From positions 124,001-188,000 of the forward strand of contig NZ_JAFIWC010000003.1 of assembly GCF_017163755.1 (NCBI RefSeq): 64,000 nt of DNA, given 5' to 3'. Below the pieces are notes generated by a model that worked only from the letters and a program-made list of their open reading frames with translations, searched no databases and had not been told where the DNA came from. Shown in pieces: positions 1,827-2,054 of the stretch. Numbering within the stretch: the first letter of the stretch is position 1; each line of letters begins with the position of its first letter. This DNA comes from Xanthomonas sp. (GTDB lineage Bacteria; Pseudomonadota; Gammaproteobacteria; Xanthomonadales; Xanthomonadaceae). Position numbers and translations under genes: made by a program.

Positions 1827-2054
1827 GGAGCCTAGAAACTCCGCTAACAGCGGTACCCACCTCCGACAAACTGGTGGGTTTTTTGTGTCTGCATGCTTCG
1901 CAGGTGCAACCGACGCGACGTTCTGCGTCGGGAGGGCGGTGAATACAACACCCGCAAGGGGAATAAGCCCGCCGGCTGTTAGCGGTTTCTAGCCTCCCGA
2001 CTTCCCGTCCGCCATTGGCGGCGGATGGCCACTTCATGGAACGAGGAGGCGACG
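1827..2054 (+). promoter_or_regulatory. Candidate structured 5' leader RNA of the 2055-2586 gene pair
   Basis: A long-range inverted repeat pairs 1827-1851 with 1975-1997. The core CCGCTAACAGC/GCTGTTAGCGG is perfect over 11 bp and is extended by CTAGAAA/TTTCTAG and GGAG/CTCC. It encloses a terminator-like hairpin (1855-1879 plus T-run) and a CGACGC/GCGTCG hairpin (1911-1930). A further stem (2008-2013 with 2020-2025) precedes the Shine-Dalgarno GAGGAGG at 2043-2049. The CCTCC at 1993-1997 could pair either with the 5' arm or with the Shine-Dalgarno sequence, so control of translation is possible. The structure is read directly from the sequence; a regulatory role is inference. Confidence 0.55.
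1855..1884 (+). terminator. Intrinsic-terminator-like hairpin downstream of hsdR, inside the leader
   Basis: The perfect stem ACCCACC/GGTGGGT (1855-1861 with 1873-1879) has an 11-nt loop and runs into TTTTTT. It could end hsdR transcription, or act as an attenuator for the following small genes, because it sits inside the larger long-range stem. Confidence 0.6.

Follow-up and report, generated by a model that had tools for sequence, protein, structure and literature searches.

According to PMC5320573, RNase P releases the antisense RNA C4 of phages P1 and P7 from a longer transcript, and the loop segment b′ of C4 partly covers the ribosome-binding site; both the c4 antisense RNA and the c4-a1b1 motif are listed by Weinberg et al. 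(PMC2864571). In the phage P1 record (immI), promoter, a1, b1, C4 RNA, a2, b2 and icd follow one another in this order, and a hairpin followed by a T run lies between b1 and C4. The Rfam models give this record 68.8 bits for C4, 51.0 bits for c4-a1b1 and 35.1 bits for isrK, the last being below the cut-off of 50, and the sRNA-Xcc1 family (RF02221) has no match in it. The isrK score comes from the a1/b1 stretch with its hairpin (L205 231-312), a hint that isrK may represent the 5′ module of C4-type loci. IsrK itself (RF01394) belongs to the Salmonella prophage Gifsy-1, in which one promoter is reported to yield both a terminated short RNA and a read-through mRNA, and the short isoform to bind the read-through mRNA in trans, making it translationally active (PMC4825925). 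In Acinetobacter baumannii, phage-derived C4-like sRNAs that fit the Rfam C4 motif have multiplied in the host and are apparently processed from longer transcripts, according to PMC5320573.

sRNA-Xcc1 was mapped as an 88-nt RNA in Xanthomonas campestris (PMC2996969) and is reported to be carried in vesicles, with predicted plant targets, in Xylella (PMC12189769), and to lie upstream of symE in Xanthomonas integrons (PMC12444791). The Rfam model RF02221 spans only the 3′ part of the leader discussed below and comprises no 5′ module, terminator hairpin, C4 link or clan. In the open-access literature searched, we found no paper tying sRNA-Xcc1 to C4; in PMC12189769 the two terms stand in separate rows of one table. 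Here, we describe a leader from Xanthomonas sp. whose comparison with these systems suggests that sRNA-Xcc1, studied so far as a trans-acting RNA, is more simply the antisense half of a phage-type leader, its best-supported partner being its own 5′ module.

Architecture of the leader

The window, namely the whole stretch of 64,000 nucleotides analysed, carries the leader on its + strand. Just 5′ of it ends a partial HsdR protein of type I restriction (7-1737; T1R_D3-like by Pfam and, at 72.8 bits, under the cut-off of NCBIfam). The leader is preceded by a promoter-like sequence, TTGACG-N17-CAAAAT (1790-1818), with an expected RNA start at about 1825, which places the beginning of the outer stem close to the expected 5′ end of the transcript. 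This stem, noticed in the initial annotation as an inverted repeat of about 22 pairs, does consist of 22 predicted pairs between 1827-1851 and 1975-1997 and encloses the block 1827-1997; the fold of 1820-2060 has a predicted energy of –110.6 kcal/mol (z = –5.31), a value reached by none of 200 shuffled sequences. Its 5′ arm is formed by an outer segment, a1 (1827-1839), pairing with 1986-1997, and an inner segment, b1 (1844-1851), pairing with b′ (1975-1982). The terminator-like hairpin and the further stem expected inside the block are located where they had been placed in the predicted fold: the former (1855-1884) pairs 1855-1861 with 1873-1879 and runs into T residues at 1879-1884, and the inner stems beyond it start at 1883/1909 and 1910/1931. 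Because its loop is 11 nt long, this + strand hairpin is not listed by a simple terminator scan that admits loops of 3-8 nt.

The 3′ part of the block, at 1927-2009, is a member of sRNA-Xcc1 (RF02221), with 75 bits against a cut-off of 53 in the covariance model search, which adds to the initial observation. Within this C4-like antisense RNA we distinguish a closing stem (1927-1935 with 1993-2001), b′ (1975-1982) and a′ (1986-1992); a hairpin at 1910-1931 shares positions 1927-1931 with the closing stem. Downstream, a Shine-Dalgarno sequence, GGAGG (2045-2049), precedes the ATG at 2055 of a 104-aa protein of the XAC0095 family (2055-2369; NF047335, 88.2 bits, cut-off 34), followed by a second small protein of 71 aa (2371-2586) with no NCBIfam match and a weak Pfam match below the cut-off. 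By eye, frames resembling the 71-aa protein are also found downstream of two other copies in the same genome (L001 and L004).

The layout corresponds to that of phage P1 immI in the order of its parts. A promoter of its own is followed by a1/b1 segments lying upstream of, and complementary to, the antisense RNA, and a hairpin with a T run separates b1 from the latter. As in the C4 of P1 and P7 (RF01695, RF03163), the antisense words are in a loop (b′) and a linker (a′), and antirepressor genes stand behind the relatives of the element. Unlike in P1 and P7, the core sequence and the inner stem are different, a2/b2 are lacking, and an XAC0095 gene takes the place of icd/ant: no antirepressor or icd gene follows the leader in the window, whereas such genes are present downstream in relatives and phages. 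The score match is also lacking in either direction. In fact, at E up to 1 the region 1700-2100 of the window matches no Rfam family but RF02221, with no match for C4 (RF01695), c4-a1b1 (RF03163) or isrK (RF01394), and a search for C4 in the sRNA-Xcc1 copies from 20 relatives was negative at E up to 5; window-type RNAs therefore differ in this respect from the C4-like sRNAs of A. baumannii. By these sequence comparisons the leader is C4-like in its layout, and its scores place it outside Rfam C4. The occurrence of a terminator-like hairpin inside a closed stem had been judged unusual; for this kind of locus it is not odd, because P1 has its hairpin at the same place.

Covariation, distribution and gene company

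Four sRNA-Xcc1 copies above the cut-off are present in the genome of origin, all sharing the whole block including the 5′ module; a fifth match (L005), with 19.9 bits and thus below the cut-off, was taken as a chance match and dropped. On the 3′ side, XAC0095-family genes are found in the window and at L003 (40 bits) and SymE genes at L001 and L004. RF02221 was detected at E up to 0.001 in 77 of 397 genomes of the order (69 above the cut-off) and in 58 of 398 genomes drawn from the phylum (40 above the cut-off). The 63 loci from the searches of the own genome, the order and the phylum, with 120 more and less one repeat (L178, at the same place as L063), make a set of 182. By a sequence rule on the first bases of the match, and not by a tree, these were divided into 140 class II loci, whose match begins with GxxGGGAGG and which include the window, and 42 class I loci. 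Covariation was studied in an alignment of 79 of the 83 non-redundant class II loci, four (L037, L043, L044 and L045) being omitted as too divergent; L092 and L109, poorly aligned at the 5′ end, were retained and depress the pairing counts. L092 (G061:C2) has, upstream of its full core, a second and incomplete sRNA-Xcc1 core containing an N, possibly an assembly seam, and at L045 a weak c4-2 match (2890-2958; 34.8 bits, cut-off 41) lies near an sRNA-Xcc1-like leader.

In these 79 loci, the outer stem, the terminator hairpin and the hairpin 1910-1931 taken together are paired in 93.6% of the cells. Double changes occur at 22 of 32 pairs, in 230 cells, against a mean of 58.6 in shuffled alignments (none of 500 as high), and the covariation score is 0.291 versus a maximum of 0.046 for slid versions. 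The helix formed by a1 is paired in 94.5% of the cells, with double changes at 6 of 11 pairs, and that formed by b1 is the strongest, with double changes at all 8 pairs and 89.2% of the cells paired; in addition, the stretches corresponding to 1844-1848 and 1978-1982 are exact reverse complements in 65 of the 79 rows, using 30 different words. The terminator-like hairpin covaries at 5 of 6 tested pairs and the hairpin 1910-1931 at 3 of 7 (96.0% paired). The covariation in the long stem that had been proposed as a check is strong. In the closest relative by protein search, X. bonasiae (L206), both sides of the stem have changed together with respect to the window, in a compensated manner. The sRNA-Xcc1 closing stem is paired in 99.9% of the cells, but it is conserved rather than proved by covariation, since 7 of its 9 pairs are invariant. 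RNAalifold also chose the outer stem on the same alignment, with a modest covariation term of –3.47 kcal/mol.

The promoter-like motif is held at a nearly fixed distance. TTGAC is present within 50 nt 5′ of the arm in 124 of the 134 class II loci with a recognisable arm, at 36-40 nt in 122 of them, compared with 4 of 134 in the control interval 50-100 nt upstream of the arm. Taken as comparative sequence evidence, these data indicate that the leader is real and under strong selection. Avoidance of shared b′ words between copies of the same genome was not seen: among the class II loci with a readable b′ word (134 of 140), and excluding loci without a genome label, words were shared by 11 of 189 within-genome pairs and 421 of 8589 between-genome pairs.

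As to the genes behind the element, 45 proteins were profiled on the class I side (41 from 39 class I loci and 4 from divergent class II loci), including 11 SymE, 5 Bro-N, 2 pRha, 1 P22_AR_N and 1 KilA-N; several PHROGs antirepressor families also have matches, each to as many as 6 of the proteins. In class II, in which 138 loci had a called frame, 62 of 89 scanned proteins are XAC0095 and 8 are SymE. Furthermore, the leader has blastn matches in 13 phage and 12 plasmid records; the element is just 5′ of annotated antirepressor genes in phages Aaphi23, Bordetella vB_BaM-IFTN1 and Rac-SA53, and in Smp131 the annotated antirepressor frame spans it. The suggestion that comparable leaders precede small-protein families elsewhere is supported, and extends to other genes, the families concerned being SymE, phage antirepressors and XAC0095. 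The genome of origin also harbours two true Rfam C4 copies (L188, G000:C75:71703-71787, 76.1 bits; G000:C15:63613-63694, 64.2 bits); by eye, the L188 copy is followed by a SymE-like frame, so that both leader types seem to serve the SymE family. As for the protein encoded in the window, XAC0095 of X. citri is reported as detected only in planta, and its transposon mutant is among those listed with altered virulence (PMC2653504).

The association was also examined from the side of the protein. A search of contigs for XAC0095 gave only two loci, and a separate genome search was used, yielding 30 loci that are mostly the best match per genome and not a random sample; in these, the sRNA-Xcc1 core is directly upstream in 22 of 30 by pattern, and at L232 by Rfam score, and the a1b1-plus-terminator pattern in 20 of 30. 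No core is directly upstream at L233, L235, L238, L240 and L241. At L227, L230 and L232, an a1/b1-like arm and an sRNA-Xcc1-like core are present and the terminator hairpin is apparently absent, by eye and by pattern.

Pairing partners and proposed mechanism

In some class I loci (e.g., L007, L049, L056, L064 and L181) a third segment at the ribosome-binding site repeats the 5′ words, and the middle strand can therefore pair with either. The 95% control level of complementarity at the ribosome-binding site is reached by 16 of 42 class I and 5 of 140 class II loci, and over all 182 loci the median score (19.0) is close to the control mean (18.7). A swap test, based on uninterrupted helices and 25 swaps within the same class, in which a locus is said to beat the swaps when it exceeds at least 24 of 25 (about 8% by chance), was applied to both classes. 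At the ribosome-binding site the class I mean is 18.0 against 15.0 when swapped, with 12 of 42 loci beating the swaps and about 3 expected, whereas class II shows no excess (14.5 against 14.2; 13 of 140 loci). In the 5′ region both classes exceed the swapped values, with 19.9 against 16.7 and 13 of 42 loci in class I, and 20.6 against 16.5 and 53 of 140 loci in class II. In the window, the duplex score between the antisense strand and the ribosome-binding site is 19, against a 95% control level of 25, and no a2/b2 is seen; the exact paired motif occurs nowhere else in its genome, as far as exact matches are concerned. The a1/b1 segments are therefore the only recognised partner of the antisense strand and, as judged from sequence, a second target was either lost from the window or never present there.

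We consider it probable that the leader is a self-targeting antisense module of the C4 type, likely of phage ancestry, re-used by XAC0095 and SymE genes. This reading is suggested by the complementarity of b′, in the hairpin loop, and a′, in the linker, to b1 and a1, and by their co-evolution, including the compensated change in L206. It also draws on the constant spacing of the promoter-like site, the order of parts in common with P1, the position of the element ahead of antirepressor genes in phages and of antirepressor and SymE families in relatives, the excess of matches at the class I ribosome-binding site, the mapped RNA of X. campestris and the SymE-like frame behind the true C4 copy L188. 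Some transcripts would stop at about 1884 as a short species of roughly 60 nt; the output of one promoter, a terminated short RNA together with a read-through transcript, would then match that of IsrK (PMC4825925), in spite of the lack of an isrK match in the window. Read-through transcripts would be cut near 1927, by RNase P if the analogy with C4 holds, and the freed antisense RNA would bind a1/b1 on other copies of the leader. In class I, the gene behind the leader, antirepressor or SymE, could in addition have its ribosome-binding site masked by this RNA. The window lacks that second target, so that here the antisense RNA would act through a1/b1, affecting either the short RNA or the extent of terminator read-through. 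The short RNA itself may be an activator or a decoy here, because the short isoform of IsrK is reported to activate its read-through mRNA (PMC4825925).

The predicted folds change with the extent of the RNA. Alone, the segment 1825-1884 folds into two hairpins, that of a1 and that of the terminator; the full leader favours the outer stem, with mean pair probabilities of 0.94 for a1 and 0.999 for b1 and near zero for the closing stem, and an RNA starting at 1927 forms the sRNA-Xcc1 closing stem. As the latter shares bases with both the outer stem and the hairpin 1910-1931, these would be mutually exclusive forms. The predicted locking out of the closing stem in the full leader counts against the reading as a C4-type module, under which processing must win over refolding; so do the lack of score homology to C4, c4-a1b1 and isrK, the lack of a target at the ribosome-binding site of the window and of most of class II, the small share of class I loci that reach the control level there, with a median over all loci at the control mean, the absence of an RF02221 match in P1 and the apparently hairpin-less loci L227, L230 and L232.

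A more tentative proposal concerns the xanthomonad class only, in which a phage translational repressor may have turned into a transcription attenuator, the antisense RNA, out of contact with the ribosome-binding site, acting solely on a1/b1 of the nascent leader and so setting the read-through of the terminator. Every locus would then regulate itself by feedback, independently of the others, through a recognition word that can be exchanged. Two loci examined by eye, L234 and L236 (G032:C1 and G211:C11), would fit such attenuation; in both, an a1/b1-like arm and a terminator-like hairpin lead directly into the XAC0095 gene, with no intervening sRNA-Xcc1. Searching two genomes for an antisense counterpart to these arms returned nothing but the arms. 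L234 continues with another arm, then an sRNA-Xcc1-like stretch and another gene.

The reading as a C4-type module would offer a directly testable mechanism, a reason for the position of sRNA-Xcc1 ahead of symE, and a single frame for RF02221, C4, c4-a1b1 and isrK. The window copy differs from the symE leaders of Xanthomonas integrons in preceding an XAC0095 gene.

Other explanations

The initial annotation suggested a switch, here taken as acting only in cis, in which access to the Shine-Dalgarno sequence depends, by way of CCTCC (1993-1997), on whether the outer stem or an alternative to it forms. The two pairings it supposed, and a third, are possible in the predicted folds: the partner of CCTCC is the 5′ arm in the full leader, whereas it is the Shine-Dalgarno sequence in an RNA starting at 1885 and 1931-1935 in an RNA starting at 1927. 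The predicted openness of the start codon varies (0.39, 0.49 and 0.70). The switching itself is not supported, given that the predicted openness of the Shine-Dalgarno sequence is nearly constant (0.15, 0.17 and 0.16), because a local hairpin otherwise covers it, and that class II has no excess of complementarity at the ribosome-binding site. Pairing of CCTCC with the Shine-Dalgarno sequence is thus possible in one predicted form, without evolutionary support, and a cis-only switch, which would also account neither for the phage relatives nor for the promoter and the terminator-like hairpin, appears unlikely.

Quite unlikely, too, is that the element is a gene for a trans-acting sRNA that merely lies upstream of a small-protein gene and has its true targets elsewhere. 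The title of Chen et al. (2011) describes sRNA-Xcc1 as trans-acting, and the several copies per genome would agree with such a gene, but the core stands directly upstream of most of the sampled XAC0095 genes, its paired motif has no second exact occurrence in the genome, and it co-evolves with its own 5′ arm.

Finally, a DNA element, i.e., an integron recombination site or the end of a mobile element, is very improbable: among Xanthomonas integron cassettes, symE with sRNA-Xcc1 is the most widespread according to PMC12444791, and an inverted repeat in several copies per genome would suit such an element, but the repeat varies between loci by compensated words, starts near a promoter at a fixed distance and ends before the gene.
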